DNA from: Agromyces allii
GTDB taxonomy: Bacteria > Actinomycetota > Actinomycetes > Actinomycetales > Microbacteriaceae
Reading direction: 5' to 3'
Assembly: GCF_009749385.1 (NCBI RefSeq)
Contig: NZ_WBIN01000010.1
Coordinates: 1-64,000 of the forward strand
DNA length: 64,000 nucleotides
Of the stretch, positions 22,251 to 37,471 are shown in pieces. Every line of letters begins with the position of its first letter. Position 1 is the stretch's first letter. The translations under genes and the position numbers were made by a program. The notes beneath the pieces are model-generated. The model was given only the letters and a program-made list of their open reading frames with translations, did not search any database and was not told where the DNA came from.

Positions 22251-22261
22251 AGGCTCCGAGA

Positions 22262-22873
22262 TCAGCCGCAGAGTTCCTTCGGCGCGATCGGCGTGCTCGA
22301 GACGCCGATCATCGTGATCGCGTCAGCGTTGACGGTGAAGTCGATCCAGCCGTTCACGTCGTCTCCTGCGGCGTACACGAACGTGTCCTGACCGATCTGG
22401 CCGGCGACCTCCAGTGCGGGGTGGGCCGCGTCGAGCTCCGCCTTCGTCGACCCCGGGCGGATGCCCGACTCGGTCGCCGGAACCGGGATCGCCGGGTCGA
22501 CCGCGGCAGAGACCCAGACCGCCCGGACCGTGCCGTCGTCGTTCAGCGCCAGGGTGAAGCCCGGGGTGTCCTCGCGCTGCAGCCCGACGATGCCCGGGCA
22601 CCACTCATCGGCCGTGAACGTGGTCAGGGGTGCGATCACGTCGGGATAGGCAGCCCCGCGGGTGAGCGGCCCGATGCCCTGACCGGAGATGACCCAGGTC
22701 GAGACGTCGGCGGGGTCGATGACGACCGGCTCGGGCGTCGGCGTGGGCGTCTCGACGGGCGCCGCCGACGGCGTCGAGGAGGCCTCGGGGTCGGCGGTGG
22801 CGGTCGGGGCGCAGGCGGCGAGCGTCAGCACGACGAGCGCTGCGCCGAGGATTCGAACCGGATGGATGCGCAT
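22262..22873 (-). CDS. Secreted lipoprotein of unknown function
   Basis: 203 residues. The N-terminus is a Sec lipoprotein signal ending in LTLAACAPT (lipid-attached Cys near residue 21), followed by a Thr/Pro/Ala-rich linker to about residue 48. The rest is a small globular domain with two repeated modules: ISGQGIGPLTRGAAYPDVI and TESGIRPGSTKAELDAAHP. Such GIGPLxxG and GIRPGST modules recur in actinobacterial lipoproteins of unknown role. Two cysteines (DEWCPG and KELCG) could form a disulfide. No function can be assigned. Confidence 0.8.
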   Translation of the reverse strand: MRIHPVRILGAALVVLTLAACAPTATADPEASSTPSAAPVETPTPTPEPVVIDPADVSTWVISGQGIGPLTRGAAYPDVIAPLTTFTADEWCPGIVGLQREDTPGFTLALNDDGTVRAVWVSAAVDPAIPVPATESGIRPGSTKAELDAAHPALEVAGQIGQDTFVYAAGDDVNGWIDFTVNADAITMIGVSSTPIAPKELCG

Positions 22874-22983
22874 CTTCGGGCTGCTTTCGATTCAGGCTCG
22901 GCGAGTCCGAGGACCATCAGAATACTGAGCAGCGACCGGCAGCGAGCGCACCGCTTCGTTCCGATCCGGTAACGCGCCTCCGG

Positions 22984-23715
22984 TCACGCCGCGACGGCCG
23001 CCTCGGCATCCGTCGTCGGCGTCGCCGGCTCGATGCGGAACGTCGCACCGAACCGATCGAGCAGCTCGTCGCCGCCCGAAACGACGGTGAGCGAACCGGC
23101 GCGGCGCGCCGCTGCAGGCCGCCCCGAAAGCAGCTCGGGCAGGGCACGGGCCTCGAGCTCGAGTTCGAGCACGCCCGACGGCACGGGCTCCAGCGCCGAG
23201 CGGCGGCGCGGCTGCGGCAGGGCTCCGGGGCCGACCGGCACGACGTCGAGCGTGCGGCCGACGACGATCGCCGACAGGGAGACGGCGCCCACGTGCAGCA
23301 CGTACTCGGTGGGCGGGAGGGCGGCCGCGGCATCCGCCCGGAAGGCGGCGCGAAGCGCGTACGCGAGCGAATCGGCGCTGACCGTCTCGTCGTCGCCGGG
23401 TTCGCCGAGCACGGCCCAGCCCCAGCGTTCGAGCGCGGTGATGACGGGCTCGAGGTCGCGCCCGAGCGGGGTGAGCTCGTAGCCGCCGCGCACGGTCGGC
23501 ACGCGCCGGAGCACCCCGGACTCCTGCAACTCCTTGAGCCGGTCGCTCAGGATGTTGGTGGGGATCCGGGGCAGTCCGGTCTTCAGGTCGCCGTAGCGGC
23601 GAGGGCCGACGAGCAGGTCGCGCACGATGAGCAGTGCCCACCGGTCGCCGACCCGCTCGAGCGCCCTCGCCGCTCCGCCGTACTGGCCGTAGCCGCGCGT
23701 GCCGCGTGTCGCCAT
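22984..23715 (-). CDS. HxlR-type winged-helix regulator with C-terminal domain
   Basis: 243 residues, about twice the usual HxlR length. The first 100 hold the wHTH: RVGDRWALLIVRDLLVGPRR, DLKTGLPRIPTNILSDRLKE (recognition) and RGGYELTPLGRDLEPVI. The remaining 140 residues form an alpha/beta domain resembling SCP2-like or sterol-carrier modules found behind such regulators (TEYVLHVGAVSLSAIVVG). It starts 10 bases after the stop of a VOC gene on the same strand, so it is co-transcribed and probably autoregulated from the palindromic promoter at 24250. Ligand unknown. Confidence 0.83.
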   Translation of the reverse strand: MATRGTRGYGQYGGAARALERVGDRWALLIVRDLLVGPRRYGDLKTGLPRIPTNILSDRLKELQESGVLRRVPTVRGGYELTPLGRDLEPVITALERWGWAVLGEPGDDETVSADSLAYALRAAFRADAAAALPPTEYVLHVGAVSLSAIVVGRTLDVVPVGPGALPQPRRRSALEPVPSGVLELELEARALPELLSGRPAAARRAGSLTVVSGGDELLDRFGATFRIEPATPTTDAEAAVAA

Positions 23716-23725
23716 GCGGTCGAGA

Positions 23726-24190
23726 CTAGGCCGTCGCGGCCGTGGGCTCGGCCGCGCCCTGCTCGGCGAGGTAGGCCTCGGGCCCCTGCTCGGCGGCGGC
23801 CTGCTCCATGAAGAGGAACGAGAGGTTGTTGCCGTCGGGGTCGTCGAGGTCGCGCGAGTACATGAAGCCGTAGTCCTGCGCCTCGCGCGGCTCGCTGCCG
23901 CCGGCGGCGAGGCCCTTGGCGAGCACCTCGTCGACCTCGTCGCGCGAGTCGCGGCTCAGCGCGATCGACATCTGCGCGTGGGTCTTCGGGTCGATGATCT
24001 GCTTGTCGGTGAAGGTCGCGAGGTACTCGCGCTTCAGCACCATGAAGTAGATCGTGTCGCTGAGCACGACGCAGGCGGCGTTGTCGTCGGTGAAGTTCGG
24101 GTTGATGCTGAACCCGAGGGCCTCGTAGAACGCCTTCGCGCGGTCGAGGTCGGTGGTGGGAAAGTTCACGAAGATGCTGGTCGCGGTCAT
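23726..24190 (-). CDS. VOC-family protein (lactoylglutathione lyase-like)
   Basis: 154 residues from ATG 24190, preceded by GGAGGCG. The fold is a two-module VOC: VNFPTTDLDRAKAFYEALGFSI, then MVLKREYLATF and DLDDPDGNNLSFLFME. The last motif (DPDGNxLS) is the hallmark of the YaeR/PhnB-like glyoxalase group. It is the first gene of a two-gene operon with an HxlR regulator, an arrangement seen for electrophile or antibiotic response genes. The substrate is unknown. The Ala/Glu-rich last 20 residues are probably disordered. Confidence 0.85.
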   Translation of the reverse strand: MTATSIFVNFPTTDLDRAKAFYEALGFSINPNFTDDNAACVVLSDTIYFMVLKREYLATFTDKQIIDPKTHAQMSIALSRDSRDEVDEVLAKGLAAGGSEPREAQDYGFMYSRDLDDPDGNNLSFLFMEQAAAEQGPEAYLAEQGAAEPTAATA

Positions 24191-24249
24191 GATCGCCTCC
24201 GGGAGATCGTCTGGTCGTGTCGTGTTGACATCGCCTAGCTTGCTCTTTG

Positions 24250-24265
24250 CAAGTGCACTTGTCAA
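24250..24265 (-). promoter_or_regulatory. Promoter with TTGACA -35 overlapped by a perfect palindrome
   Basis: On the minus strand TTGACA (24265-24260) overlaps the perfect 12-bp palindrome CAAGTGCACTTG (24250-24261). A further GCAAG arm (CTTGC-N5-GCAAG) lies next to it, and CAAGTG recurs at 24270. It controls the VOC-HxlR operon 60 bases downstream. HxlR repression is inferred from position. Confidence 0.6.
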
Positions 24266-24341
24266 TAGCAAGTGAAAGAAACTTCGGATGCCGCGGCGCG
24301 GCGCCTGCCGGAGCGGTCGACACGCGCGGGTCACGCGCGGG

Positions 24342-25985
24342 TCAGCGCGCGGCGCTCCGCCGCACGAGCAGCGCCAGGTGCAGTGCCGTGAGCACCTCGC
24401 CGTCGTCGAGGTCGACGCCGAGCAGGTCGCCGATGAGCGCGATCCGCTGGTAGAAGACCGAGCGCGACAGGTGCGAGGCCCCGGCCGCGGCCGTGCGGTT
24501 GCCCGGGTGCGCGAGCATCGCGCCCAGCACGCTCAGCAGGTCGCCGTCGCGCGCGAGGTCGTACTCGATGAGCGGGGCGAGCATGCGCTCGCTGTGCTGC
24601 AGCAACCGGGGATCGTCGCGCAGCGAGGTGACGAGCCGGATGAGCGGACGGTCGTCGCCGCGGCGCACGATGAGTCCGCGCGCACCACGCGGACGAGGAC
24701 CGCGGGCGAGGTCGGCGGCCTCCTGCACCGAGCCGAGCGCATCCTCGAGCCCGGCGGCGGGGGCGCCGATCGAGAACACGAGCCGGTCGGCCGCGGCCTG
24801 GTCGCCGCCCACGAGGGCGAGGGCGAACGCCTGCACCTGGGCCTCGGTCAGCGCCTTGGGCGCTGAGAGCAGCACGATGCGGGCCGACGCCGGGGCGCCT
24901 GCGGCGTTCGCGGCACCGTCGATGGCGCGGCCCGCGAACGCCCGCGCCGCGGCATCCGCCACGCCTGAAGCGACCGGAGCGCCCGACGCGACGATGCCGT
25001 AGAGCACGGCCCCCTCGACCGGCAGGCCGGCCGCCGCGACGCGCGCCGCAGCCCCCGCGACGCCCGCGAACCGGCCCGCGAGCAGCCCGTCGACGAGCCG
25101 CTGGCGACCCACGCGAGCCCACTCGTCGCTCGGACCGTCGGCGAGACGCCCGAGGGCGAGCGCGATCGCGCCCTGCTCGAGCACGCTCGTGCGGCCGGCC
25201 GGATGCGCCGGACCCGGTAACGCGATCAGGTGACCCCACCGGGTGCCGCGCGCCTCGACGGGAACGATGAGCCAGTCGCCCGATTCGCCGCGGCGGTGCG
25301 CGAGCCGAGAGCGCGCCTCCCAGTCGGTGAAGAGCGCGGCCTCGTCGGCGGGCGGCACCTCGGCCGCGACCACCTCGTGCGCGAGGTTCTCGAGCACGAC
25401 GGCCGATCCGAGCGTCTGCGCGAGCTGGTGCACGATGAAGTCCGCAGGCGACCCGCGCAGGCTGAGCGCGGTGAAGCGCTCGCGCACCTCGTCGCGCGCC
25501 CTGAGCGCGGCCGTCTGCTCCGAGATGATGCGGCTGTGCACGGCCTCGGTGAGGGTCACGAACTTGACCTCGCGGTGCAGCACGACGAGGGCGAGCCCGT
25601 GCTCGCGCGCCGACTGCTCGACCACGGCCGGCACGTAGCGGTAGTGCACGCCGAGCTCGAGCACGAGGCCCGAGAGCCCGGCCTCGACGAGGCCCGCGAT
25701 GAACGCGTCGAGCTCCGCCGGCTCGGTCGGCCAGCCCGACCCGGTCGAGAGCAGCAGCTCGCCGCCGTCGAGCAGCCGGGCGACGCCGCCGCTGTCGGAC
25801 ACGTGCACCCAGCGCACCCGCGCATCGAGCAGGCCGTCGGCCGCGAGCACCTCCGGCAGGCCGTTCGCGACGGCCGGCAGCGTCAGGATCTCGCGCACCG
25901 TCGGCAGCCCGCCGTCGGCCGTCGAGGCGGCCGAAGCGGTCGGACGGTCTGTACGGATCGCTGCGTCTTCGCGACGTTCTGCCAT
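24342..25985 (-). CDS. PucR family transcriptional regulator
   Basis: 547 residues in the PucR order. The N-terminal PucR ligand domain spans about 28-150 (TVREILTLPAVANGLPEVLA, WVHVSD, GGELLLSTG). A GGDEF-like central region follows, and the C-terminal helix-turn-helix is near residues 490-545 (ALIEYDLAR relative, HPGNRTAAAGASHLSRSVFYQRI). These proteins activate purine, GABA or amino-acid catabolic genes. It is divergent from methylmalonate-semialdehyde dehydrogenase and an omega-aminotransferase, its probable targets. Confidence 0.9.
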   Translation of the reverse strand: MAERREDAAIRTDRPTASAASTADGGLPTVREILTLPAVANGLPEVLAADGLLDARVRWVHVSDSGGVARLLDGGELLLSTGSGWPTEPAELDAFIAGLVEAGLSGLVLELGVHYRYVPAVVEQSAREHGLALVVLHREVKFVTLTEAVHSRIISEQTAALRARDEVRERFTALSLRGSPADFIVHQLAQTLGSAVVLENLAHEVVAAEVPPADEAALFTDWEARSRLAHRRGESGDWLIVPVEARGTRWGHLIALPGPAHPAGRTSVLEQGAIALALGRLADGPSDEWARVGRQRLVDGLLAGRFAGVAGAAARVAAAGLPVEGAVLYGIVASGAPVASGVADAAARAFAGRAIDGAANAAGAPASARIVLLSAPKALTEAQVQAFALALVGGDQAAADRLVFSIGAPAAGLEDALGSVQEAADLARGPRPRGARGLIVRRGDDRPLIRLVTSLRDDPRLLQHSERMLAPLIEYDLARDGDLLSVLGAMLAHPGNRTAAAGASHLSRSVFYQRIALIGDLLGVDLDDGEVLTALHLALLVRRSAAR

Positions 25986-26060
25986 CGGTGCACCTTCAAA
26001 CCCTCTGAAAAACTTGAGGACGTCAGCCTAACCGACGACCGGGCGGAATGTCCGGGCCGA

Positions 26061-26074
26061 CCGCACCAGTGCGG
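26061..26074. promoter_or_regulatory. Inverted repeat CCGCAC-CA-GTGCGG before mmsA
   Basis: Perfect 6-bp arms lie in the 126-base divergent region between the PucR gene and mmsA, 38 bases before the mmsA start. The AT-rich stretch at 26000-26020 is the more likely promoter core. It is a candidate PucR site. Confidence 0.4.
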
Positions 26075-26111
26075 CCGCGGCATCCGTCGCTCCACCACGA
26101 AGGAACTGCTC

Positions 26112-27689
26112 ATGAGCATCACCGAGACCGCCTCGTCGCCCGCCTCGACGTCTGAAGCGCCCGTCATCGGGCACTGGATCGACGGCGCCCACCGCGCATC
26201 GACCTCGGGGCGAACCGCCCCCGTGTACAACCCCGCGACGGGTGCCGTGCAGGCCGAGGTCGCGCTCGCCGACCAGGCCGAGATCGACGCGGCCATCGCG
26301 TCGGCGCACGCCGGGTTCCAGGTGTGGAGCGGCTACTCGATCGCCAAGCGCCAGACCGTGCTCTTCGCGTTCCGCGAGCTCCTGAACTCGCGCAAGGGCG
26401 AGCTCGCCCACATCATCACGGCCGAGCACGGCAAGGTCGTCTCCGACGCCATGGGCGAGATCCTCCGCGGCCAGGAGGTCGTCGAGCTCGCGACCGGCTT
26501 CCCGCACCTGATCAAGGGCGCCTACTCCGAGAACGCCTCCTCGGGCGTCGACGTCTACTCGGTGAAGCAGCCGCTCGGCGTGGTCGGCATCATCAGCCCC
26601 TTCAACTTCCCGGCCATGGTGCCGATGTGGTTCTTCCCCATCGCGATCGCCGCGGGCAACGCCGTCGTGCTGAAGCCCTCCGAGAAGGACCCCTCGGCCG
26701 CGCTCTGGCTTGCAGAGCTCTGGCGCGAGGCCGGCCTGCCCGACGGCGTGTTCACCGTGCTCCAGGGCGACAAGCTCGCCGTCGACGGCCTGCTCACGAG
26801 CCCGCTCGTGCAGTCGATCTCGTTCGTCGGCTCGACACCGATCGCGCAGTACATCTACGAGACCGCCTCGAAGCACGGCAAGCGCGTCCAGGCGCTCGGC
26901 GGTGCCAAGAACCACATGCTCGTGCTGCCCGACGCCGACCTCGACCTCGTCGCCGACTCGGCCGTCAACGCCGGCTACGGCGCCGCCGGCGAGCGCTGCA
27001 TGGCGATCTCGGTCGTGCTGGCCGTCGAGCCCGTCGCCGACGAGCTGATCGCCAAGATCTCCGAGCGCATCGCGACCCTGAAGATCGGCAACGGCGCGGG
27101 CGTCGACACGGCCGACGGAACCGTCGAGCCCGACATGGGTCCGCTGATCACCGCGGTGCACCGCGACAAGGTCGCCTCGTACGTCGACATCGCCGAGGCC
27201 GACGGCGCGACGGTCGTCGTCGACGGTCGCGGCCTCACGGTCGACGGCCACGAGGACGGCTTCTTCTTCGGCCCGACGCTGCTCGACAACGTCCCCACGA
27301 CGAGCCGCGCCTACACCGAGGAGATCTTCGGCCCGGTGCTCTCGATCGTGCGCGTCGAGTCGTACGACGAGGGGCTCGACCTCATCAACTCGGGCCAGTT
27401 CGGCAACGGCACGGCGATCTTCACGAACGATGGCGGCGCGGCCCGCCGGTTCCAGAACGAGGTGCAGGTCGGCATGATCGGCATCAACGTGCCGATCCCC
27501 GTGCCCGTCGCCTACCACTCGTTCGGCGGATGGAAGCAGTCGCTGTTCGGCGACGCGAAGGCGTACGGCGTGCACGGCTTCGACTTCTTCACCCGCGAGA
27601 AGGCCATCACGAGCCGCTGGCTCGACCCGGCCAAGCGCGGCGACTCCGCCAACACCGGCATCAACCTCGGCTTCCCCCAGAACCACTGA
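26112..27689 (+). CDS. mmsA: CoA-acylating methylmalonate-semialdehyde dehydrogenase
   Basis: 525 residues. The family marker GAAGERCMAIS carries the nucleophile Cys296, and there is no general-base Glu in the AKNHMLVLPDADLD segment, which distinguishes CoA-acylating MMSDH from hydrolytic aldehyde dehydrogenases. The cofactor loop is ISPFNFPAMVPMWFFPIA. It converts methylmalonate or malonate semialdehyde to propionyl-CoA or acetyl-CoA. The next gene is an omega-aminotransferase that could supply the semialdehyde from beta-alanine or 3-aminoisobutyrate. The start has GAAGGA 7-12 bases upstream. Confidence 0.93.
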   Translation: MSITETASSPASTSEAPVIGHWIDGAHRASTSGRTAPVYNPATGAVQAEVALADQAEIDAAIASAHAGFQVWSGYSIAKRQTVLFAFRELLNSRKGELAHIITAEHGKVVSDAMGEILRGQEVVELATGFPHLIKGAYSENASSGVDVYSVKQPLGVVGIISPFNFPAMVPMWFFPIAIAAGNAVVLKPSEKDPSAALWLAELWREAGLPDGVFTVLQGDKLAVDGLLTSPLVQSISFVGSTPIAQYIYETASKHGKRVQALGGAKNHMLVLPDADLDLVADSAVNAGYGAAGERCMAISVVLAVEPVADELIAKISERIATLKIGNGAGVDTADGTVEPDMGPLITAVHRDKVASYVDIAEADGATVVVDGRGLTVDGHEDGFFFGPTLLDNVPTTSRAYTEEIFGPVLSIVRVESYDEGLDLINSGQFGNGTAIFTNDGGAARRFQNEVQVGMIGINVPIPVPVAYHSFGGWKQSLFGDAKAYGVHGFDFFTREKAITSRWLDPAKRGDSANTGINLGFPQNH

Positions 27690-27709
27690 CCCCGCGAGGA
27701 CCCTCCATC

Positions 27710-29122
27710 ATGACCGACACCCTCAGCGACACCGCGACCGCGGTGCACACCGACCGCCACGGCGCCGTGCACGCGCTGCCCGACCCCGCGGCCGAGGCCC
27801 AGGTGCGCGCCGACGACCGTGCGCACGTCTTCCACTCCTGGAGCGCGCAGGCGCTCATCGACCCGCTGCCCATCGCGGCGGGCGAGGGCTCGACGTTCTG
27901 GGACTACCAGGGCAACGCGTACCTCGACTTCAGCTCGCAGCTCGTGAACCTGAACCTGGGCCACCAGCACCCCGACCTCGTCGCCGCGATCCAGCAGCAG
28001 GCCGGGCGTCTGGCGACGATCCAGCCGTCGATGGCGAACGACGTCCGCGGCGAGCTCGCGCGCCGCATCGCCGAGATCGCCCCGGGCGACCTCGACAAGG
28101 TGTTCTTCACGAACGGCGGCGCCGACGCCAACGAGTACGCCGTTCGCATGGCCCGCGCGGTCACCGGACGACGCAAGGTGCTGTCGATGTACCGCAGCTA
28201 CCACGGCGGCACCGCGACGGCGATCTCGCTCACAGGCGACCCGCGCCGCTGGGCGAACGAGCCCTCCGACGGGTCGGTCGCGCACTTCTTCGGCCCCTAC
28301 GAGTACCGCTCGTCGTGGGGCTCGACCACGCCCGAGGAGGAGGCGCAGCGCGCGCTCGCCCACCTCGAGCAGGTCATCGTGCTCGAGGGCGCGAACACGA
28401 TCGCCGCGGTCATCCTCGAGACGATCGTCGGCACGAACGGCGTGCTCGTGCCGCCGCCCGGCTACCTCGAGGGCGTGCGCGCGCTGGCCGACAAGTACGG
28501 CATCGTCTACATCGCCGACGAGGTCATGGTCGGCTTCGGCCGTGTCGGCGAGTGGTTCGCGGTGAACCACTTCGGCGTCACGCCCGACCTCATCACCTTC
28601 GCGAAGGGCGTCAACTCGGGCTACGCCCCGCTCGGCGGCGTCGTGATCTCGCAGCGGATCGCCGCGCACTTCGACACGGTGGCCTTCATGGGCGGCCTGA
28701 CGTACTCGGGCCACCCCCTCGCGTGCGCCCCCGGCGTCGCCACGTTCGAGGTGTTCGAGCGCGACGGCATCCTCGAGCGGGTGCGCGACCTCGGCGAGCG
28801 CGTCGTCGGCCCCCGCCTGCGCGAGATCGCGGCGAAGCACCCGTCGGTCGGCGAGGTGCGCGGCCTCGGCCTCTTCTGGGCGATCGAGCTCGTGAAGGAC
28901 GCCGAGACGCGCGAGCCGCTCGTGCCGTTCAACGCCGCCGGTGCCGATGCCGCCCCCATGGGCGCGGTGGCCGCTGCGTGCAAGAAGGCCGGCCTCTGGC
29001 CGTTCGTGCACTTCAACCGACTGCACGTCGCTCCCCCGCTCGTGATCAGCGAGGAGGAGCTGCTGCGCGGCCTCGACATCATCGACGAGGCGCTCACGGT
29101 CGCCGACTCGTACGTCGTCTGA
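27710..29122 (+). CDS. Class III (omega) aminotransferase
   Basis: 470 residues of the PLP-dependent class III family. Landmarks are FTNGGADANEYAVRMAR (cofactor phosphate site), SYHGGT, IADEVMVGFGRVGEWF (PLP-ring Asp) and the Schiff-base Lys299 in LITFAKGVNSGYAPLGG. The sequence style matches beta-alanine/taurine/putrescine--pyruvate transaminases. It follows mmsA by 20 bases with no terminator and is divergent from a PucR regulator. Together they form a two-step route from an omega-amino acid to an acyl-CoA. Which amine is used is inferred only. Confidence 0.9.
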   Translation: MTDTLSDTATAVHTDRHGAVHALPDPAAEAQVRADDRAHVFHSWSAQALIDPLPIAAGEGSTFWDYQGNAYLDFSSQLVNLNLGHQHPDLVAAIQQQAGRLATIQPSMANDVRGELARRIAEIAPGDLDKVFFTNGGADANEYAVRMARAVTGRRKVLSMYRSYHGGTATAISLTGDPRRWANEPSDGSVAHFFGPYEYRSSWGSTTPEEEAQRALAHLEQVIVLEGANTIAAVILETIVGTNGVLVPPPGYLEGVRALADKYGIVYIADEVMVGFGRVGEWFAVNHFGVTPDLITFAKGVNSGYAPLGGVVISQRIAAHFDTVAFMGGLTYSGHPLACAPGVATFEVFERDGILERVRDLGERVVGPRLREIAAKHPSVGEVRGLGLFWAIELVKDAETREPLVPFNAAGADAAPMGAVAAACKKAGLWPFVHFNRLHVAPPLVISEEELLRGLDIIDEALTVADSYVV

Positions 29123-29140
29123 CGCAGGGCGCCACCCGCT

Positions 29141-29183
29141 CGAGTCGCCCGGTTCCCCCTCGGAACCGGGCGACTCGTCGTTT
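29141..29183 (+). terminator. Rho-independent-like terminator after the aminotransferase
   Basis: CGAGTCGCCCGGTTCC (29141-29156) pairs perfectly with 29162-29177 across the loop CCCTC and is followed by TCGTTT. It ends the mmsA-aminotransferase operon. Confidence 0.8.
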
Positions 29184-29281
29184 CCGGGCGAGCGGATGCC
29201 GCGGGCCGGCGCCACGCGCGCGTACAGCGCCGGGCAACCGGGCGTTCAGGGCGGCGTCGTGTGGTCGGCGACGCCCTCGGC

Positions 29282-29287
29282 TAGCCT
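29282..29287 (+). promoter_or_regulatory. -10 box TAGCCT for leaderless transcript
   Basis: TAGCCT is followed by 7 bases and the ATG at 29295. No Shine-Dalgarno sequence is present. Confidence 0.55.
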
Positions 29288-29294
29288 GAGTCGC

Positions 29295-30818
29295 ATGGAC
29301 GAACGGGGCGCGTCGAGCGGGATGCCCCGGCGCACGTTCCTCAGGGCGGGCCTTGCCACAGGGCTCGCCGGGGTCTCCGCGATCGTGCTCGCGAGCTGCA
29401 CGTGGAACGAACCGCGTCCGACCGCGACGCCCACGGCCACCCCCACTCCGACGACGCCGGCCACACCGTCGGCCGTGCCGCGCCCGACGAACATGCGTCG
29501 CTCCGCGTGGGGCACCGACCCGTATGCGCGCGGCGCGTTCAGCTTCGCCGAGTTCGGCTCGACCGACCAGATGCGCACGCGGCTCGCGACGCCCATCGGC
29601 GGCCGGCTCGTGTTCGCGGGCGAGGCGACCTCCTCGCTCGCACCCGGCACGCTGCAGGGCGCCCGCCTCTCCGGGCTCCGGGCCGCGGGCGACATCGCCG
29701 GACTCGCCGAGGCCGGCGAGCGCGTCGCGGTCATCGGCGCCGGCCTGGCCGGGCTCACGGCGGCTCGCGAGCTCGCCGAGCGGGGCTTCGAGGTCGTCGT
29801 CATCGAGGCGCGCGACCGCATCGGCGGGCGCGTGCAGTCCATCGTCGACGACGCGTTCGGCACGCCGGTCGAGCTCGGCAGCTGGCTCGTCGGCGACGAC
29901 GAGAACCTCGTCGAGGCGCTGGCCGCGGCATCCGTCGGCACGACCGAGTTCCTGGGCACGGCCGTGGTCGTGCGAGCCGACGGCACCCCGCTCGAGCCGT
30001 CGACCGCCGGCGCCGAGGCGCTCGAGCGCGCCCACGTCTGGTCGCAGGCGCTCCCCCACGACGTGTCGGTCGCGACCGCCCTGCTGCAGTCGGGCGAGGT
30101 GCCGGCCTCCGAGACGCCCGGCGCCGACGGCGTGAGCCCGGCCGGCTGGCTGCGGCACGCCGTCTCGAGCGGGCTCGAGCCGCTGACGGGCGCCGCCGCG
30201 ACCGTGGTCTCCGCACAGGCCTGGGATCCTGCGCCGCTGCTCTCACCGCCCTCGGACCTGCGCGTGCCGACCGCGCCGATCTCCGACCTGCTCGACCAGC
30301 TCGCCGACGGCCTCGACGTGGTGCTGATGAGCGGCGTGACCCAGATCGCCTACAGCGACACCAGGGTGAGCCTCCGTCTCGACACGGGCGAGTCCCTCAC
30401 GGTCGACCGGGTCGTCTCCACGCTGCCGCTCGGCGTGCTGAAGACCGACCAGGTGCGGTTCCAGCCCGCGCTGCCCCGCCCGTACCAGCTCGCCATCTCG
30501 CAGCTCGGCATGGGCGTGGTCGACGTCGTCTGGCTCGCCTTCGACGACCCCTTCTGGCGTGCGGATGTCGCGGCCGACCCCTCGGCGGAGGCGGAGTCGC
30601 CCGACGCCGGCTCACCGGCATCGGTGCTCAGCGTGGTCGGCGGGTTCCCGACGGTCGCACGGTGGATCGACGTGGGCGTCGCGACCGGGTCTGGCGAGGC
30701 CGCTCTCGTCGGCGTCATCGCCGCAGCGCAGGCGACCCGCCTCGAGCAGCTGTCGGATCAGGACTTCCTGTCGGCCGTGCTCGCCGATCTCGAGCCGTTC
30801 GCCACAGCCACCGGTTGA
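29295..30818 (+). CDS. Flavin amine oxidase with circularly permuted motif order (Tat lipoprotein)
   Basis: 507 residues. A twin-arginine signal (PRRTFLRAGL) and lipobox LASC (Cys35) are followed by a Thr/Pro linker to residue 66. Then comes WGTDPYARGAFSF (72-84), FAGEA (107-111) and GTLQGARLSGLRAAG (118-132), the block that normally ends polyamine/monoamine oxidases. Only after this comes the Rossmann motif VAVIGAGLAGL (144-154) with VVVIEARDRIGGR. The chain stops after the substrate domain (ISQLGMGVVDVVWLAFDDPFW), just where the WxxDPYxxG block would usually follow. All core parts are present once, so it is a permutation, not a truncation. The enzyme is probably surface-anchored and oxidises amines. 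The last 104 bases overlap the converging gene. Confidence 0.85.
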   Translation: MDERGASSGMPRRTFLRAGLATGLAGVSAIVLASCTWNEPRPTATPTATPTPTTPATPSAVPRPTNMRRSAWGTDPYARGAFSFAEFGSTDQMRTRLATPIGGRLVFAGEATSSLAPGTLQGARLSGLRAAGDIAGLAEAGERVAVIGAGLAGLTAARELAERGFEVVVIEARDRIGGRVQSIVDDAFGTPVELGSWLVGDDENLVEALAAASVGTTEFLGTAVVVRADGTPLEPSTAGAEALERAHVWSQALPHDVSVATALLQSGEVPASETPGADGVSPAGWLRHAVSSGLEPLTGAAATVVSAQAWDPAPLLSPPSDLRVPTAPISDLLDQLADGLDVVLMSGVTQIAYSDTRVSLRLDTGESLTVDRVVSTLPLGVLKTDQVRFQPALPRPYQLAISQLGMGVVDVVWLAFDDPFWRADVAADPSAEAESPDAGSPASVLSVVGGFPTVARWIDVGVATGSGEAALVGVIAAAQATRLEQLSDQDFLSAVLADLEPFATATG

Positions 30819-31470
30819 CGGCCACGAGCGTCGCCGTCAGCGCGAGGAAGATCGCGAGCACGATCGTGCAGGCGACGACGACGCCGACCACGCTGCCGAC
30901 CTGGGCCTCGTCGAGGAAGAAGTACGGGTACCACCCGACATCCGCACCCCTGATGAGGGTGTAGATCAGCCAGCCGACCGGGAACGGCAGCACCCAGCCG
31001 ACCGTCGACCACGGCACCGCCGGGTTCACGCCGAGCACGCTGTCGACCGACCACGCGATCACGGCGAGCGCCGGCACGACGAAGTGCAGGAGCGTGTCGG
31101 ACCACGGCACGTCGACGCGGTACCCGTGCGACGAGGACTCGGCCACGATGATCGCGAACACGATGCCCGAGAGCACCACGTAGACCGTGACGCACGTGCG
31201 GAGGATGCCGAGCCACGCCGGATCGCGCGGGGCGCTCAGCGCGAAGACGGCCGCGATGGTCAACGTGATGACGGCGAGGAACGCCGACTGGATCGTGAAG
31301 TAGCTGAAGAAGTTCGCCGTCGCGAAGCTGCGGAACCCCAGCACGTAGCGGAAGTTGCCGACGAGGGCGACGATCTCGAGCACGACGATCGCCAGCCGGA
31401 ACACCCCCAGCAGCATGCGCGCCCGCCGAGTCCGGGCCTCTTGCGAGAGTCCGGACGTGACGGCGGGCAT
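30715..31470 (-). CDS. Pr6Pr family membrane protein
   Basis: 251 residues with six predicted transmembrane helices, the usual number for this family, and conserved short loops such as NFFSYFTIQSAFLAVI and DTLLHFVVPALAVIAW. PYFFLDEAQVG is near the fifth helix. No enzymatic motif is visible and the family is uncharacterised. The last 25 residues are Arg/Pro/Gly-rich and lie in the 104-base overlap with the amine oxidase, so they may have been gained by loss of a stop. The start is leaderless (TAGCGT 7-12 bases upstream). Confidence 0.8.
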   Translation of the reverse strand: MPAVTSGLSQEARTRRARMLLGVFRLAIVVLEIVALVGNFRYVLGFRSFATANFFSYFTIQSAFLAVITLTIAAVFALSAPRDPAWLGILRTCVTVYVVLSGIVFAIIVAESSSHGYRVDVPWSDTLLHFVVPALAVIAWSVDSVLGVNPAVPWSTVGWVLPFPVGWLIYTLIRGADVGWYPYFFLDEAQVGSVVGVVVACTIVLAIFLALTATLVAVNRWLWRTARDRRARPTGSPDPTAARGGSPALRR

Positions 31471-31476
31471 GCCTCA

Positions 31477-31482
31477 ACGCTA
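31477..31482 (-). promoter_or_regulatory. -10 box TAGCGT for the Pr6Pr gene
   Basis: On the minus strand TAGCGT is followed by 6 bases and ATG at 31470. This is the same geometry as other leaderless starts in this window. Confidence 0.5.
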
Positions 31483-31514
31483 CGCCAGCGTCGCCGCCGG
31501 GGCTCGTCGGCGGC

Positions 31515-32327
31515 TCAGTCGAGCGGGCGCAGGATGCGGTCGAGGAACTGCCGGGTGCGCGCCTCGCGCGGATTCGTGAACATGCTCCCCGGCGCACCGC
31601 GCTCGACGACCACGCCGCCGTCCATGAAGAGCACCTCGTCGGCCACCTGCCGGGCGAACCCCAGCTCGTGCGTGACGACGACCATGGTCCAGCCCTCGTC
31701 GGCGAGCTCCTTGATGACCTTCAGCACCTCGCCGACCAGCTCGGGGTCGAGCGCGCTCGTGGGCTCGTCGAAGAGCAGCAGGTCGGGCTTCAGCGCCAGC
31801 GCGCGCACGATGCCGACGCGCTGCTGCTGCCCGCCCGACAGGGCGAACGGGTACGCGTCGCGCTTCTCGGCGAGGCCGACGCGCTCGAGCAGGGCCTCGG
31901 CGTCGGCGATCGCCTGCGCCTTCGGCACGCGCTGCACGCGCACCGGGCCCTCGATGACGTTCTCGAGCACGGTCATGTGCGGAAAGAGGTTGTGCTGCTG
32001 GAACACCATGGCCGAGCGGTCGCGCATCGCGAGACGCCCCTGCTTGGTCACCTTGGCCGCGAAGTCGAGGTCGGGCCCGCCGTCGAAGCTCAGGATGCCG
32101 GCATCGGGCGTCTCGAGTCCGTTCAACGAGCGCAGCACGGTCGTCTTGCCCGACCCGCTCGGGCCGATGAGCACGACGACCTCGCCGCGCCGCACCTCGA
32201 GGTCGATCGAGCGCAGCACCTCGTTGTCGCCGAACGACTTGCGGATGCCGCGTGCGGTCAGCAGCACGGCATCGTCGGGCGTCGCTCGGGGCGCGAGGGG
32301 GTCGGCAGGGATCTCAGACGGCGACAT
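31515..32327 (-). CDS. Polar amino-acid ABC transporter ATP-binding protein
   Basis: 270 codons (GlnQ-like). Walker [19 protein letters not shown], signature [16 protein letters not shown], Walker [21 protein letters not shown] and the switch [21 protein letters not shown] are all present. The start is ATG 32327, which overlaps the permease end by 14 bases. It is third in a binding protein, permease, ATPase operon. The ATPase drives import of a polar amino acid or an amino-acid-like compound. Confidence 0.9.
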
Positions 32328-32982
32328 AGCGGTCCAACCTCTTCTCAAGACGGCCCTGCGCGCTCGACAGGACGAGGCAGAAGAGCCAGTAGACGAGCGC
32401 CGCCTCAAGATAGATCAGCATGAACTCGCGGCTGAACGCGGCGATCTCCTGGGCGACCCGGAACAGCTCGGTCACGAGGATCAGCGAGGCGAGCGACGTG
32501 TCCTTCACGAGCGAGATGAACGTGTTCGACAGCGGTGGCACCGAGACGCGCGCGGCCTGCGGAAGGATGATGCGGCGGAGCGTCGTGCCCGACGACATGC
32601 CGATCGTGTACCCGGCCTCCCACTGGCCCTTGGGCACCGAGAGGATGGCGGCACGGATGATCTCGGCGCCGTACCCGCCCACGTTGATCGAGAAGGCGAT
32701 GATCGCGCTCGGCCACGGATCGAGCACGATGCCGATCGCCGGCATGCCGTAGAAGATCACGAAGAGCTGCACCAGCAGGGGCGTGCCCCGCACCACCGAG
32801 ACGAAGAACCTCGCCGCGCCCGAGAGCACGCGATTCTTCGAGAGCCGCGCGAGCGCGACGCCGAGCGCGATGACGAGGCCGATCGCGAACGACGCGAACG
32901 CCAGCGGGATCGTGCCGCTGATGCCGCCCCAGACGATCGGCCAGAAGGAGTCGAGGAACAGTTGCCAGCCCGAGGAATCCAC
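32314..32982 (-). CDS. Polar amino-acid ABC transporter permease
   Basis: 222 residues with about five transmembrane helices. It is a HisM/GlnP-type permease. The characteristic segments are [40 protein letters not shown] and [25 protein letters not shown] (EAA region). A perfect 14-bp hairpin separates it from the upstream binding-protein gene, which probably lowers its expression relative to that gene. A single permease suggests a homodimeric channel. Confidence 0.9.
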
Positions 32983-33024
32983 GTCGGCAGCCCCTTCCGA
33001 TCAGGCGAACGGCCCACCCGAGAC

Positions 33025-33056
33025 GCGAGCGCGTCCGCCGGAGCGGACGCGCTCGC
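33025..33056 (-). terminator. Intra-operon hairpin between binding protein and permease
   Basis: GCGAGCGCGTCCGC (33025-33038) pairs perfectly with 33043-33056 around the tetraloop CGGA. No T-run follows on the minus strand. Such hairpins commonly stabilise or partly terminate the upstream message so that the binding protein is made in excess. Confidence 0.75.
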
Positions 33057-33095
33057 ACTCGAGCAGGTGCGTTCGCACGCTTGCTCTGGAAGGTA

Positions 33096-33902
33096 CTACT
33101 GCGAGACGTCGGCGCCGAAGTACTTCTCGCCGATCTCGGCGAGCGTGCCGTCTTCCTTGAGCTTCGCGAGGGCTTCGTCGACGGCCTTCACGAGGGCGGT
33201 CTTGTCCTTCGTGAAGGCGAGGGCGCTCTCGCTCGGGTCGGTCTCGGCGACGACCTCGAGCTTCGCGTCGGGGTTGGTCTTCAGGTAGTCGAGGAAGGTC
33301 AGCTTGTCGTTGACGGTCGCGTCGACGCGGCCCTGCTCGAGGAGCGCGACGGCCTGGGCCCAGCCCTCGACGGCCTCGACGTTCGCGCCGGCCTCGGTCG
33401 CGAGCTCGTAGAAGTTGCTCGTCAGCGACTGCGCGGTGGTCTTGCCCTTCAGGTCTTCGAAGCTCGAGATCGACGTGTCGCCCTCGTTCACGACGACGAC
33501 GCTCGGCGAGACCGTGTACGGCGTCGAGAAGAGGTAGGACTCCTCGCGCTCGGGGTTGATCGAGACCTGGTTCGCGATCACGTCGAACCGGCCGGCCTCG
33601 AGGCCCGCGAAGATCGCGTCCCACTGGGTCTCCTGGAACTCGATCTCGAGACCGAGCTCGTCGGCGACGGCCTCGGCGATCTCGACGTCGTAGCCCACCA
33701 GGTCGCCCGTGCCCTCGTCGTGGTAGCTGAACGGACGGTAGGTGCCCTCGGTCGCGACCGTGAGCGTGCCCGCCTTCACGAGTCCGAACTCGTTGTCGGC
33801 CGCGTCGTCGCTCGCAGCGGGGGTGCCGCTCGAGCAGGCTGCGAGGGCGAGGACGGCTGCGGATGCGGCGGCGAGGCCGAGAATGCTGCGGACGCGTGAC
33901 AT
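33096..33902 (-). CDS. Polar amino-acid ABC transporter substrate-binding lipoprotein
   Basis: 268 codons from ATG 33902. The Sec lipoprotein signal ends in VLALAACSSG (lipid Cys near residue 22). The mature part is a bacterial SBP family 3 protein: AGTLTVATEGTYRPFSYHDE, GYDVEIAEAVADELGLEIEF, WDAIFAGLEAGRFDVIANQVSINPER and YLFSTPYTVSPSVVVV. It is the first gene of the importer operon. The family binds polar amino acids or cystine. Ligand identity cannot be read from the sequence. Confidence 0.9.
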   Translation of the reverse strand: MSRVRSILGLAAASAAVLALAACSSGTPAASDDAADNEFGLVKAGTLTVATEGTYRPFSYHDEGTGDLVGYDVEIAEAVADELGLEIEFQETQWDAIFAGLEAGRFDVIANQVSINPEREESYLFSTPYTVSPSVVVVNEGDTSISSFEDLKGKTTAQSLTSNFYELATEAGANVEAVEGWAQAVALLEQGRVDATVNDKLTFLDYLKTNPDAKLEVVAETDPSESALAFTKDKTALVKAVDEALAKLKEDGTLAEIGEKYFGADVSQ

Positions 33903-34194
33903 GGGTGGTGCTCCGTTCGTGGGGATGGCAGATCGTGCCGGTACCGTGTTCGGCCGCCCGGCGCTGTTCGAGTCCATCACGCGGGCGACCTAGAGGGAAA
34001 CCGCGTGACCCCCCGTTGCATTCCCGGAGCGGCGTGCGCATGCGCGTCGGGCGGGCGCACTTCGCGCGAGATACACGCTCCGGCGCCGGACGCGCAACCC
34101 CCGATATCGCCCGCGGCGGCATCGCTACCGTTGCGAGGTCGTCGGAAGCTGCCGGCGGCCCGGTGTCCCCGCACCGCTACCCGAAGGGAACCAC

Positions 34195-34524
34195 ATGATC
34201 ACCCTGTCCTGGCTCCTGCTCCTCGCCCTCGTCGGCGGCGTCCTCGCCCTCGTCGACGGCATCTGGCGTCTGCGCGCCCGCGGCGGCTCGACCGTCGTCG
34301 GCGTCATCGAGGTCATCGTCGCCGCGCTGTTCCTGCTCTCGTTCTTCGTGCCCGGCATCCCGTGGGGCCCGCTCGTGCTCGGCGTCGCCACCATCATCGC
34401 GCTCGTCGTCGCCCTCTTCGCCGGCGGCCGCACGGGCCGCGGGGTCACGATCGCCGCGCTCGTCGTCACGGCCATCTGGGTCGTGCTGGTCAACCACTGG
34501 CTGATCATCCCCGGCATCAACTGA
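34195..34524 (+). CDS. Small integral membrane protein
   Basis: 109 residues with three or four hydrophobic helices (SWLLLLALVGGVLALVDG, VIVAALFLLSFFVPGI, LVLGVATIIALVVALFAG, VTIAALVVTAIWVVLV). No known domain is recognised. GAAGGGAA precedes the ATG, and a possible -10 TACCGT lies at 34126-34131, which gives a leader of about 60 bases. It stands alone between an ABC operon and a terminator. Confidence 0.75.
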   Translation: MITLSWLLLLALVGGVLALVDGIWRLRARGGSTVVGVIEVIVAALFLLSFFVPGIPWGPLVLGVATIIALVVALFAGGRTGRGVTIAALVVTAIWVVLVNHWLIIPGIN

Positions 34525-34555
34525 CGCCACCGCACCACGCGGCGCGCTGCGCTGC

Positions 34556-34601
34556 ACGCCGAAGGGCGCCAGGGCATTCAGTCCCTGGCGCCCTTCGGCG
34601 T
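34556..34601. terminator. Strong bidirectional hairpin terminator
   Basis: A perfect 19-bp stem joins 34556-34574 with 34583-34601 around the 8-base loop CATTCAGT. It fills the 87-base gap between two converging genes (34195-34524 and 34612-34887). Confidence 0.85.
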
Positions 34602-34611
34602 CGTCGGCGGC

Positions 34612-34887
34612 CTACGCCGCGTCGTGCGCGTGCTCGCTCGCGTGCGCGTTCGCCCAGGCGAGCGCCTCGACCGCGTCGATGCCGAGTTCCGGATGCCGCG
34701 TGCGGAACTCCGCCGAGCACCCGCTGTAGTCGGCCTCGAGGCGTCGGGCCGCCTTGACGAGGGCCGGTCCGGCCGTGGCGCCGAACCTGGCGATGACGCG
34801 GGCATCGTCGCGCACCGGGACGGGGGCGGTGCCCCATCCGGTCCATTCGACGACGGCGCGGGTGAGTCGAGGCTCCATTGCCTTCAT
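34612..34887 (-). CDS. Small conserved-looking protein of unknown function
   Basis: 91 residues with a clear AAGGAG ribosome-binding site before ATG 34887. It is soluble and contains a helical stretch (GPALVKAARRLEADYSGCSAEF) and a C-terminal EALAWANAHASEHAHDAA rich in His and Ala. No family is recognised. It follows the glutaryl-CoA dehydrogenase gene by 45 bases on the same strand and ends at the strong hairpin at 34556-34601, so it is probably the last gene of that operon. The spacer holds a 9-bp tandem duplication (GGTGATGGT, 34902-34919). Confidence 0.7.
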   Translation of the reverse strand: MKAMEPRLTRAVVEWTGWGTAPVPVRDDARVIARFGATAGPALVKAARRLEADYSGCSAEFRTRHPELGIDAVEALAWANAHASEHAHDAA

Positions 34888-34932
34888 GACTGCTCCTTGT
34901 TGGTGATGGTGGTGATGGTGACGCGAGTGGTG

Positions 34933-36132
34933 CTAGAACGCGGCGATGCCCGTCAGGGCGCGGCCGATGACGAGCTGGTGGATCTCGTCGGTGCCCTCGT
35001 AGGTGCGCACCGACTCGAGGTTGGCCGCGTGCCGCATGACGGGGAACGCGTTCGTGATGCCGTCGCCCGCGAGGATCGAGCGCGCCTGGTGCGCGATCTC
35101 GAGCGCCTCGCGCACGCTGTTCAGCTTGCCGACCGAGATCTGGGCGGGCGTCAGGGCGCCGCGCTCCTTGAGCCGGCCGAGGTGCAGGGCGAGCAGCACG
35201 CCCTTCTCGACCTCGACGAACATGTCGGCGAGCTTCGCCTGCGTGAGCTGGTTCGCGCCGATCGGCTTGCCGAACACCTCGCGCGTGGTCGAGCGCTCGA
35301 GCGCCGACTCGAGGCACGAGCGCGCGGCGCCCATGGCCCCCCAGACGATGCCGTAGCGCGCCTCGTTGAGGCATCCGAACGGGCCGCTGAGTCCGCGGGC
35401 GCCGGGGAGGATCGCGTCGGCGGGCACGCGGACGCCGTCGAGGTCGACGTCGCACTGCACCGAGGCGCGCATCGAGAGCTTGCCGTCGATGGGCGTCGCC
35501 GTGAACCCGGCCGTCGAGGTCGGCACGAGGAAGCCGCGCACGGCGGCGCCGCCCTCGCCGAACGCGCCCGACGGGTCGTCGACGCGGGCCCACACGACCG
35601 CCACGTCGGCGAGCGACGCGAGGCCGATCCAGCGCTTGGCGCCGTCGATGACCCATTCGTCGCCCTCGCGGCGCGCGGTCGTGGTCATCGCCGCCGGGTC
35701 GCTGCCGCCCTGCGGCTCGGTGAGCGCGAAGCATCCGATGAGGTCGCCGGCGGCCATGCCGGGCAGCCACTGCTGCTTCTGCTCCTCTGATCCGTACTTG
35801 TGGATCGCGCTCATCGCGAGCGAGCCCTGCACCGACACGAACGTGCGCCAGCCGCTGTCGGCGGCCTCGAGTTCGAGGCAGACGAGCCCGTAGGCCACGG
35901 CGCCCGCGCCGGCGCATCCGTAGCCCTGCAGGTGCATGCCGAGCAGGCCCGCGTCGCCGAGCACCTTGACGAGCTCGCGGCGGAAGTGCTTGTTCTCGAA
36001 GTCGTCCTCGATGATCGGTGCGATCTGCTCCTGCGCGATGGCGCGGGCGCGCTGCTGCCACTCGCGCTCCTCCTCGGTGAGCAGGGCGTCGAGGTCGAAC
36101 ACCGAGTCGATGCGGGGGGCGGTGGCGGTCAT
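34933..36132 (-). CDS. Acyl-CoA dehydrogenase, glutaryl-CoA dehydrogenase type
   Basis: 399 residues. The sequence follows glutaryl-CoA dehydrogenases: FENKHFRRELVKVLGDAGLLGMHLQGYGC, CFALTEPQGGSDPAAM (flavin loop), RWIGLASLADVAVVWARV, and the catalytic base Glu379 in RTYEGTDEIHQLVIGRALTG. It would convert glutaryl-CoA to crotonyl-CoA and CO2 using FAD and ETF. Its ATG overlaps the stop of the upstream CoA-transferase by 4 bases. This pairing is typical of glutarate catabolism from lysine, cadaverine or 5-aminovalerate. Confidence 0.87.
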   Translation of the reverse strand: MTATAPRIDSVFDLDALLTEEEREWQQRARAIAQEQIAPIIEDDFENKHFRRELVKVLGDAGLLGMHLQGYGCAGAGAVAYGLVCLELEAADSGWRTFVSVQGSLAMSAIHKYGSEEQKQQWLPGMAAGDLIGCFALTEPQGGSDPAAMTTTARREGDEWVIDGAKRWIGLASLADVAVVWARVDDPSGAFGEGGAAVRGFLVPTSTAGFTATPIDGKLSMRASVQCDVDLDGVRVPADAILPGARGLSGPFGCLNEARYGIVWGAMGAARSCLESALERSTTREVFGKPIGANQLTQAKLADMFVEVEKGVLLALHLGRLKERGALTPAQISVGKLNSVREALEIAHQARSILAGDGITNAFPVMRHAANLESVRTYEGTDEIHQLVIGRALTGIAAF

Positions 36133-37355
36133 GCGTGCGGTCCTTTCGAGGGTTCGTGCTGGTCGAGCGGATGCCAGTCGGCGCCGTGGTGCTCGTCGAG
36201 CCGAGGCGGCGGGGTGACGTAGGTCGCGGGGGTGGCCGACAGCCGGATCGGGTTGGCGACCGAGCGGCTCGGCCACGGGTCGTCGGCCGAGCCCCCGCCG
36301 CCGGGCCGGCGCGTCTCGGCGACCGGCTCGAGCCCGAGCGACTCGGCGAACGCGATGGCCTCGGCGATGTCGTTCACGAGCCCGGCGGGCACGCCGGCCG
36401 GCTCGAGCAGGGCGATCCAGTGCGCGGCGGATGCCGCGGCGAGGCGCTGCTCGATGATCTCGGTGAGCTCGTGCCGGTGCGCGACGCGCGCGCCGTTCGC
36501 GGCGAAGCGAGGGTCGTCGGCGAGTGCGGGTTCGCCCAGCACCTCGGCGAGCGCCCGGAACTGCTTGTCGTTGCCGACGGCGATCACGAGCTCGCGGTCG
36601 ACGGCGTGGAACACGGCGTAGGGCGCGATGCTCGGGTGCGCGTTGCCGAGGCGGCGCGGCGGGGCGCCCGTGGCGAGGGTCGAGGCGGCCTGGTTCGTGA
36701 GCGCCGAGAGCAGGCTGCCGAGCAGGTCGAGCTCGACGAGCTGGCCGCGACCGCTGCGGTCGCGCTCGCGCAGGGCGAGCAGGATGCCGGCGAGCGCGTT
36801 CTGCCCGGTGAGCACGTCGACCAGCGCGACGCCCGCCTTCGCGGGGTCGCCGCCGGGTTCGCCGGTGATCGACATGAGCCCGCCGACGGCCTGCACGAGC
36901 AGGTCGTACCCGGCGAGCGCCGCGCCGCGACCGGCGCCGAAGCCCGTGATCGAGCAGTAGACGACGCCGGGGTTGCGCGCCTGCACGTCGTCGTAGGCGA
37001 GCCCGAACCTGGCCATGACGCCGGGGCGGAAGTTCTCGATGACGACGTCGGCCGAACCTGCGAGCCGATGCGCTTCGGCCAGCCCCGCGGCATCCGTCAG
37101 GTCGAGGGCGACCGAGCGCTTGTTGCGGTTGACGCTGCCGAAGTAGGTGGCCTGCCCGTTCGCGTCGACGGGCGGGGTCCAGTGCCGGGTGTCGTCGCCG
37201 GTCGGCGGTTCGATCTTCACGACGTCGGCGCCGAAGTCGGCGAGCATCATCGTGGCGTAGGGGCCGGCGAGCACACGCGAGAAGTCGGCGACGCGGATGC
37301 CCGCGAGCACACCGTCGGGTCGACCTGCCGGCGCCGTCGTGGGCTCGTCGTGCAT
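36129..37355 (-). CDS. CaiB/BaiF class III CoA-transferase (probable glutarate CoA-transferase)
   Basis: 408 residues. Class III features include GIRVADFSRVLAGPYATMMLADFGADVVKIEPP (N-terminal CoA motif), VNRNKRSVALDL, ENFRPGVMARFGL, and a nucleophilic Asp near residue 180 in AGVALVDVLTG. It probably moves CoA to glutarate so that the coupled dehydrogenase can use it, as in human SUGCT with GCDH. The gene starts the operon and is divergent from a GntR/FCD regulator. A minus-strand TAGGAT box lies in the shared promoter region. Substrate assignment rests on context. Confidence 0.85.
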   Translation of the reverse strand: MHDEPTTAPAGRPDGVLAGIRVADFSRVLAGPYATMMLADFGADVVKIEPPTGDDTRHWTPPVDANGQATYFGSVNRNKRSVALDLTDAAGLAEAHRLAGSADVVIENFRPGVMARFGLAYDDVQARNPGVVYCSITGFGAGRGAALAGYDLLVQAVGGLMSITGEPGGDPAKAGVALVDVLTGQNALAGILLALRERDRSGRGQLVELDLLGSLLSALTNQAASTLATGAPPRRLGNAHPSIAPYAVFHAVDRELVIAVGNDKQFRALAEVLGEPALADDPRFAANGARVAHRHELTEIIEQRLAAASAAHWIALLEPAGVPAGLVNDIAEAIAFAESLGLEPVAETRRPGGGGSADDPWPSRSVANPIRLSATPATYVTPPPRLDEHHGADWHPLDQHEPSKGPHA

Positions 37356-37458
37356 CGCTTCCGCCTTCGCGTGTGTGGCACGGCGTCGGCGCCGCGCGAA
37401 TACATCCTATCTTGAATGATTTCTCCGCGCGCCGCCAGCCGACACCCCCCTGCTCCAC

Positions 37459-37464
37459 TAGCCT
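37459..37464 (+). promoter_or_regulatory. -10 box TAGCCT for the GntR/FCD gene
   Basis: TAGCCT, then 7 bases, then ATG 37472, with no ribosome-binding site. Same geometry as at 29282. Confidence 0.55.
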
Positions 37465-37471
37465 GAAACGC

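Follow-up and report, generated by a model that had tools for sequence, protein, structure and literature searches.

Introduction

The amine-oxidase fold is among the best-studied flavin folds. The described proteins closest to the flavoprotein analyzed here are LSD1 and LSD2 (KDM1A and KDM1B), which are its best PDB matches both by sequence and by structure, and maize polyamine oxidase (1b37). In the canonical order of the family (PF01593), the Rossmann motif is N-terminal and the block with the FAGEA and GA-SG motifs is C-terminal. The family also has a conserved lysine, which we take to be Lys661 of LSD1. In related enzymes, the placement of the lysine sets the rate at which the reduced flavin reacts with oxygen, and some family members use cytochrome c in place of oxygen, one group of them being predicted lipoproteins (PMC12272882). 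NicA2 and NctX are described as members that act, or are thought to act, as dehydrogenases, NctX being a predicted membrane-anchored lipoprotein (PMC12272882).

A natural permutation of the amine-oxidase fold is not mentioned in the titles and abstract openings of the open-access literature searched. Here we describe a flavoprotein, found in a soil actinobacterium and in numerous related bacteria, in which the terminal block precedes the Rossmann motif. We regard it as practically certain that this is a circular permutation of the LSD1/polyamine-oxidase fold, real and conserved, and as probable that the permuted fold, bound FAD and a membrane tether go together. Such a family is a natural test of how freely a fold can be rewired. 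With canonical relatives for comparison, and members with and without the lysine, one may ask whether part order, the lysine and the use of oxygen are separable. Profile methods with local scoring of fragments assign such proteins a name but leave their altered order unseen.

Results and Discussion

Family segments in reversed order

The gene lies on the forward strand at 29295-30818 of the window, by which we mean the whole stretch of 64,000 nucleotides that was analyzed. It is a single open frame whose translation has 507 residues. From the N- to the C-terminus, we observe a twin-arginine motif, a lipobox, a Thr/Pro linker and the segment W-DP-RG...FAGEA...GARLSGLRAA, after which come the GAGLAGL Rossmann motif and the substrate domain (Table 1). 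The motifs WGTDP, FAGEA and GAGLAGL start at residues 72, 107 and 148, and the last element of the chain is the helix that in canonical enzymes comes before the terminal block.

Table 1. Features of the flavoprotein gene and its surroundings, in window coordinates.
Feature	Position	Strand	Basis
Aldehyde dehydrogenase, upstream	26112..27689	+	PF00171
Class-III aminotransferase, just upstream of the flavoprotein gene	27710..29122	+	PF00202
Signal peptide with R12 R13 twin-arginine motif, lipobox LASC and Cys35 as predicted lipid site	29295..29399	+	sequence
Thr/Pro-rich linker, residues 36-59	29400..29471	+	sequence
Relocated terminal block, residues 60-136 (W-DP-RG, FAGEA, GT-GA-SG-RAA)	29472..29702	+	LSD2 and paralogue matches
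Short joint, residues 137-141, from old C-terminus to old N-terminus	29703..29717	+	switch of paralogue match; model
FAD-binding Rossmann start and substrate domain, residues 142-507	29718..30815	+	PF01593, NAD_binding_8, VIA-align to LSD1
Val411 codon, position of the conserved family lysine	30525..30527	+	alignment to canonical paralogue GMGTFDKVFLQF
Pr6Pr family membrane protein, convergent, tail overlap of 104 bases	30715..31470	-	NF038065 match
ABC transporter genes: ATPase (PF00005), permease frame, binding protein (PF00497)	31515-33980	-	after Pr6Pr, near clade

The protein matches PF01593 with 198.2 bits, against a gathering score of 19.8, and the match is split over three stretches. 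The canonical PF01593 order is reversed here, and the flavoprotein is therefore filed as a permuted variant rather than as a canonical member of the family. A phmmer comparison with LSD2 (4gu0_A, 776 residues) aligned residues 142-211 and 292-426 of the query to 337-405 and 495-630 of LSD2, and residues 60-136 to 699-775. That is, the block shared by sequence with LSD1 and LSD2 is C-terminal in those proteins but N-terminal here.

The same genome encodes a canonical flavin amine oxidase of 440 residues (G000 C5, locus L002; loci are cited by our own numbers). This paralogue resembles the flavoprotein over both parts but differs in having the canonical order, in keeping the lysine and in showing, by eye, no signal peptide before its MFDTVIVGAG sequence. 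Residues 60-145 of the flavoprotein correspond to residues 352-437 of the paralogue (45% identity, 70.5 bits), and residues 146-499, the core, to residues 6-345 (32% identity). When the block was shuffled 1000 times as a control, 991 of the shuffled sequences matched the paralogue at all, the highest score being 26.9 bits. No second copy of the block was found in residues 421-507 (best E 0.075, score -0.4). Judged from sequence, the protein is a complete swap relative to its own paralogue, with no part duplicated.

The initial annotation had placed a single terminal block before the Rossmann motif and had read the arrangement as a true permutation. The former is borne out by the translation, by the LSD2 and paralogue alignments and by the scan of the tail, and the latter is supported by the same kind of evidence. 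Its numbers need adjustment: the block does lie ahead of the Rossmann motif, but its bounds are better drawn at 60-136, and the core is of normal size, as had been proposed, but comes to about 448 residues (60-507) rather than about 440.

A duplicated block was considered and rejected, as block and core profile models revealed no ORF with two blocks among the fetched loci. A remnant of a tandem gene was likewise rejected after the window, L009, L010 and L105-L118 had been scanned for extra core or block matches, with chance-level scores (E above 100) within the same proteins set aside; the sole extra match, in L105, was a 29-residue stretch of nucleotide-binding character. Among the best 25 NCBIfam models for each of three permuted proteins, none reached its cut-off.

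Structural model

A first structural model, made from a three-sequence alignment, had a pLDDT of 35.6 and was not used. The second has a pLDDT of 80.7 and a pTM of 0.85. Its alignment (A6) combined the window protein with two proteins from Agromyces and with fragments of eight canonical-order amine oxidases encoded on viral contigs, with the caveat that the canonical sequences were cut into two pieces and the glycine motif was omitted. Over the moved block, the first eight ten-residue means range from 76 to 97; the segments with pLDDT below 50 are 162-165, 365-370, 372-380 and 391-394. In mature-chain numbering, the last helix of the block (61-78) is followed by a short turn and then by the first Rossmann strand (84-88).

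Foldseek returned LSD2 as the top match (E 3.8e-20, TM 0.64 by query length). With VIA-align, mature-chain residues 81-448 were placed on LSD1 277-739 (Z 22.3, 331 residues, 3.0 A), and residues 83-448 on maize polyamine oxidase 5-381 of 459 (Z 20.8, 332 residues, 3.4 A), the moved block being left uncovered in sequence order in the latter case. Because both matches stop short, at LSD1 739 and at residue 381 of the maize enzyme, the core ends where the canonical chains continue. Compared with LSD1, the predicted structure has the core fold of PF01593. In this model, the core is of the LSD1/LSD2/polyamine oxidase fold; the placement of the block relative to FAD was not measured. The superposition on a polyamine oxidase proposed in the initial annotation thus gave a confident model whose core matches LSD1 and the maize enzyme, but the packing of the block against FAD is not covered by it, the aligner being sequential.

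We propose that the ancestral terminal segment, consisting of a strand, the FAGEA loop and the next helix, would have been fused ahead of the Rossmann start via a short joint, and that the chain would have been reopened in the loop following the last substrate-domain helix.

Occurrence in Agromyces and beyond

Matches at E 1e-50 or better were found in 57 of 60 Agromyces genomes, including that of the window. In 55 of the 57, the match extends through the junction between block and core in the permuted order; the remaining two cover the core only (161-503 and 320-507). Two named Agromyces genomes also show this order, and two loci from the same genus encode proteins whose last 440 residues are identical to those of the proteins of A. 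terreus and A. salentinus. Among the Microbacteriaceae, 100 of 299 genomes, from 30 of 85 genera, match at 1e-30 or better. The best matches of all 100 begin at or before query residue 47 and end at or beyond residue 216, and therefore cross the junction. Near full-length matches in other genera of the family have about 38 to 49% identity to the window protein.

Homologues with the same motif order, which the initial annotation had suggested searching for, are thus common, and what had seemed a lone case is instead a widespread family. A sequencing or assembly rearrangement within one gene had been named as a possible refutation; it is excluded for all practical purposes by the conservation of the order in Agromyces, the two named genomes among them, and in the 100 Microbacteriaceae genomes.

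Permuted and canonical proteins were told apart with separate block and core HMMs, applied to the ORFs of the retrieved loci. After filtering, there were 64 permuted proteins (60 from Microbacteriaceae, including the window, plus L070, L104, L077 and L079) and 23 canonical ones. Left out were repeats (L001, L003, L014, L015, L073-L076, L093, L103), a permuted fragment at a contig edge (L097), a canonical protein with a weak core match (L004), and loci without a block match (L005, L008, L089, L098).

Outside the Microbacteriaceae, six permuted genes were found, in six genomes from five other families of the phylum: L070 and L104 belong to one other family of the same order, L077, L079 and L097 to three further families of the same class, and L180 (G662 C5) to yet another family in the phylum, one that falls outside the class in our sampling. 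These wider samples comprised 119 genomes for the order, 118 for the class and 119 for the phylum; in the family of L070, 2 of 12 genomes have the permuted gene. Among the frames from the phylum search, 28 are canonical (some being repeats of earlier loci), one is permuted (L180) and 3 have no block match. Because loci were taken only from genomes within the E-value limits, permuted genes elsewhere may have been missed.

No plasmid record had a single place covering 80% of the query; the plasmid frame L179 and the Haloarcula plasmid match that was examined both have the canonical order. Nor was a permuted version found on viral contigs in the loci examined, where four two-part proteins and L158-L161 are canonical, and L162 is canonical by a weak block match; three more scans of viral sequences added no new contigs. 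IMG/VR contigs listed as viral that carry canonical-order flavin amine oxidases are L120, L121, L122, L124, L158, L159, L160 and L161.

Number of origins

In free trees, the permuted proteins of the Microbacteriaceae form one group (SH-aLRT 100), which L180 joins (bootstrap 100, SH-aLRT 99), and the other permuted proteins are separate, three state changes being needed. These three changes would be in keeping with repeated permutation at the same loop instead of a single event, as would the tree that includes L180, in which none of 200 bootstrap trees unites the permuted proteins and no fewer than two changes are imposed by the branches with good support. On the other hand, a tree that holds all permuted proteins together is not rejected. 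Its p-AU is 0.165 with 53 rows (two long rows dropped) and 0.618 with 40 rows, where the held tree is 3.48 log units better than the free tree; nor is a single change ruled out in the 55-row tree, which was thinned from 87 rows. For the tree with L180, the Microbacteriaceae were reduced to 15 rows, five canonical rows were left out and nine rows were added. Since one clade survives the AU tests, independent origins are not demonstrated, and we judge them somewhat unlikely. One old permutation is the simplest reading, although several are not excluded.

Signal sequence and predicted localization

All 60 permuted proteins from Microbacteriaceae have a twin-arginine motif and a lipobox ahead of the block. 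The motif fits the strict pattern in 55 of them and reads RRTFI or RRSFI in the other five. The apparent Tat lipoprotein with a Thr/Pro linker of the initial annotation is supported to this extent, on sequence patterns alone, as no dedicated signal predictor was used. From the pattern we infer export through Tat and tethering to the membrane by lipid, which we consider highly probable in the absence of localization data. According to this prediction, the product would acquire FAD and its fold in the cytoplasm, be exported via the Tat pathway, and be held on the outer face of the membrane by the lipid and the Thr/Pro linker.

L070 and L104 are permuted and keep the lysine, and by eye no signal peptide directly precedes their block; their starts are uncertain because the frame remains open upstream.

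Cofactor site and the conserved lysine

In the 60 Microbacteriaceae permuted proteins (59 loci and the window), the three Rossmann glycines, the Glu of EAR and the Arg of GGR, all belonging to the FAD motifs, are each present in 60 of 60. Binding of FAD is inferred from this rather than observed, there being no FAD data, but we consider it very likely.

The position of the lysine is a different matter. It is Val411 in the window protein, in contrast to LSD1 and LSD2, and in the 60 proteins it is Lys in 8, Thr in 26, Val in 10 and other residues in 16; among the 23 canonical controls, 20 have Lys and the other 3 show a gap. The GASW tryptophan is kept in 2 of the 60, versus 18 of the 23 controls. 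Outside the Microbacteriaceae, L070, L104 and L077 have Lys, L079 has Arg, and L180 keeps the lysine in the sequence GLLDKVWL. The label 'amine oxidase' is doubtful, given Val411 and the loss of the lysine in 52 of 60 proteins.

Without the oxygen-promoting lysine, the protein probably performs poorly as an oxidase, although no activity data are available. Because this lysine is absent here and in most Microbacteriaceae relatives, our first choice is a dehydrogenase rather than an oxidase, with an acceptor other than O2. We hold this reading tentatively, at slightly less than an even chance, and substrate and acceptor are unknown. The known dehydrogenases of the flavin amine-oxidase family retain the lysine (PMC12272882), so its loss is not their mark and a silent flavoprotein fits equally. 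NicA2 and NctX in particular differ from the protein analyzed here in keeping the lysine and in having a cytochrome c gene in the operon (PMC12272882), whereas no CxxCH motif was found in frames of at least 80 residues in 12 long Microbacteriaceae loci (window 22001-38000, L009, L010 and L110-L118).

A catalytically silent, FAD-binding surface lipoprotein, serving as a sensor, a redox buffer or a structural partner of Pr6Pr, is therefore a serious alternative. Invariant FAD motifs alongside a variable lysine and a variable GASW tryptophan are what it would lead one to expect, but the whole-protein identity of about 38 to 49% across genera suggests selection beyond the FAD site, and we rate this alternative as improbable.

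L180 is Tat-lipoprotein-like and permuted, and keeps both the lysine and the canonical-site W-H (GANWVH). It possibly shows what these proteins looked like prior to loss of the lysine.

Adjacent genes

In the window, the aldehyde dehydrogenase and class-III aminotransferase genes (26112-29122) lie directly upstream of the flavoprotein gene, on the same strand, and are kept in the near clade. The aminotransferase gene adjoins the flavoprotein gene in L009-L013 and L110, and none of the eight loci L111-L118 has a match to it. The aldehyde dehydrogenase is present in L009, L010 and L110, with a partial match of 32% in L111. L114 ends about 0.6 kb upstream and is thus a weak test of upstream neighbors. 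A conserved operon with these two genes was rejected, being confined to the near clade.

These genes bear on the possibility that the protein is a tethered permuted amine oxidase, which would use O2, make peroxide and break down amines together with the adjacent aldehyde dehydrogenase and aminotransferase. Their immediate upstream position in the near clade fits ordinary amine breakdown, the core is closest to LSD1, LSD2 and polyamine oxidase, and the lysine is present in the permuted L070, L104, L077 and L180 outside the Microbacteriaceae. In the window protein, however, the lysine position is occupied by Val, as few as 8 of the 60 Microbacteriaceae proteins have Lys, and L111-L118 lack the aminotransferase and have an aldehyde dehydrogenase only as the partial match in L111. 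Moreover, the flavoprotein is predicted to be outside the cell, and the aminotransferase and aldehyde dehydrogenase inside it. On balance, we find an O2-using oxidase unlikely.

The gene on the other side is more constant. It belongs to the Pr6Pr family (NF038065, 121.7 bits against a cut-off of 30) and is convergent at the 3' side of the flavoprotein gene in 59 of 60 Microbacteriaceae loci, the window included; in the sixtieth, L169, it is about 1.6 kb away and also convergent. If shadow frames on that DNA are disregarded, Pr6Pr and the flavoprotein are the only genes common to 11 long loci (window, L009 and L110-L118). Pr6Pr also occurs without the flavoprotein: at 1e-12, Pr6Pr matches are found in 249 of 299 Microbacteriaceae genomes, versus 100 of 299 for the flavoprotein at 1e-30. 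No Pr6Pr gene was detected near permuted genes outside the Microbacteriaceae in the stretches examined (L105-L109 at 1e-15; L209). A functional link between the two proteins is, in our view, an evenly balanced question. Pr6Pr gains a genetic partner.

More tentatively than the preceding steps, electrons from an amine or another donor may pass through the preferred dehydrogenase to an acceptor that is not O2, perhaps in concert with the linked Pr6Pr. A bolder version is that the lysine-less permuted branch and Pr6Pr would be the two halves of a membrane system, the former donating electrons from its lipid-tethered, extracytoplasmic position, in which the permutation set the tether beside the FAD-covering block and may have had more than one origin at the same loop. 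We regard this as a speculation, and a rather doubtful one.

The Pr6Pr family may resemble the AIG1/ADTRP proteins. No Pfam family scored above its cut-off for it, and its name occurs in no paper of the open-access literature searched. In 62 aligned rows, in which the window is represented twice, Tyr57, Thr59, His129 and Pro133 are invariant, as are six of the eight positions of the WYPYFFLD stretch, the remaining two being conserved in 60 and 58 of the 62 rows. L168 (G088 C3) encodes a close relative of Pr6Pr with no flavoprotein match in 8 kb. In the window, the tails of the Pr6Pr and flavoprotein genes overlap at 30715-30818; negative 3' gaps occur in many Microbacteriaceae loci, and the tail overlap thus seems partly conserved.
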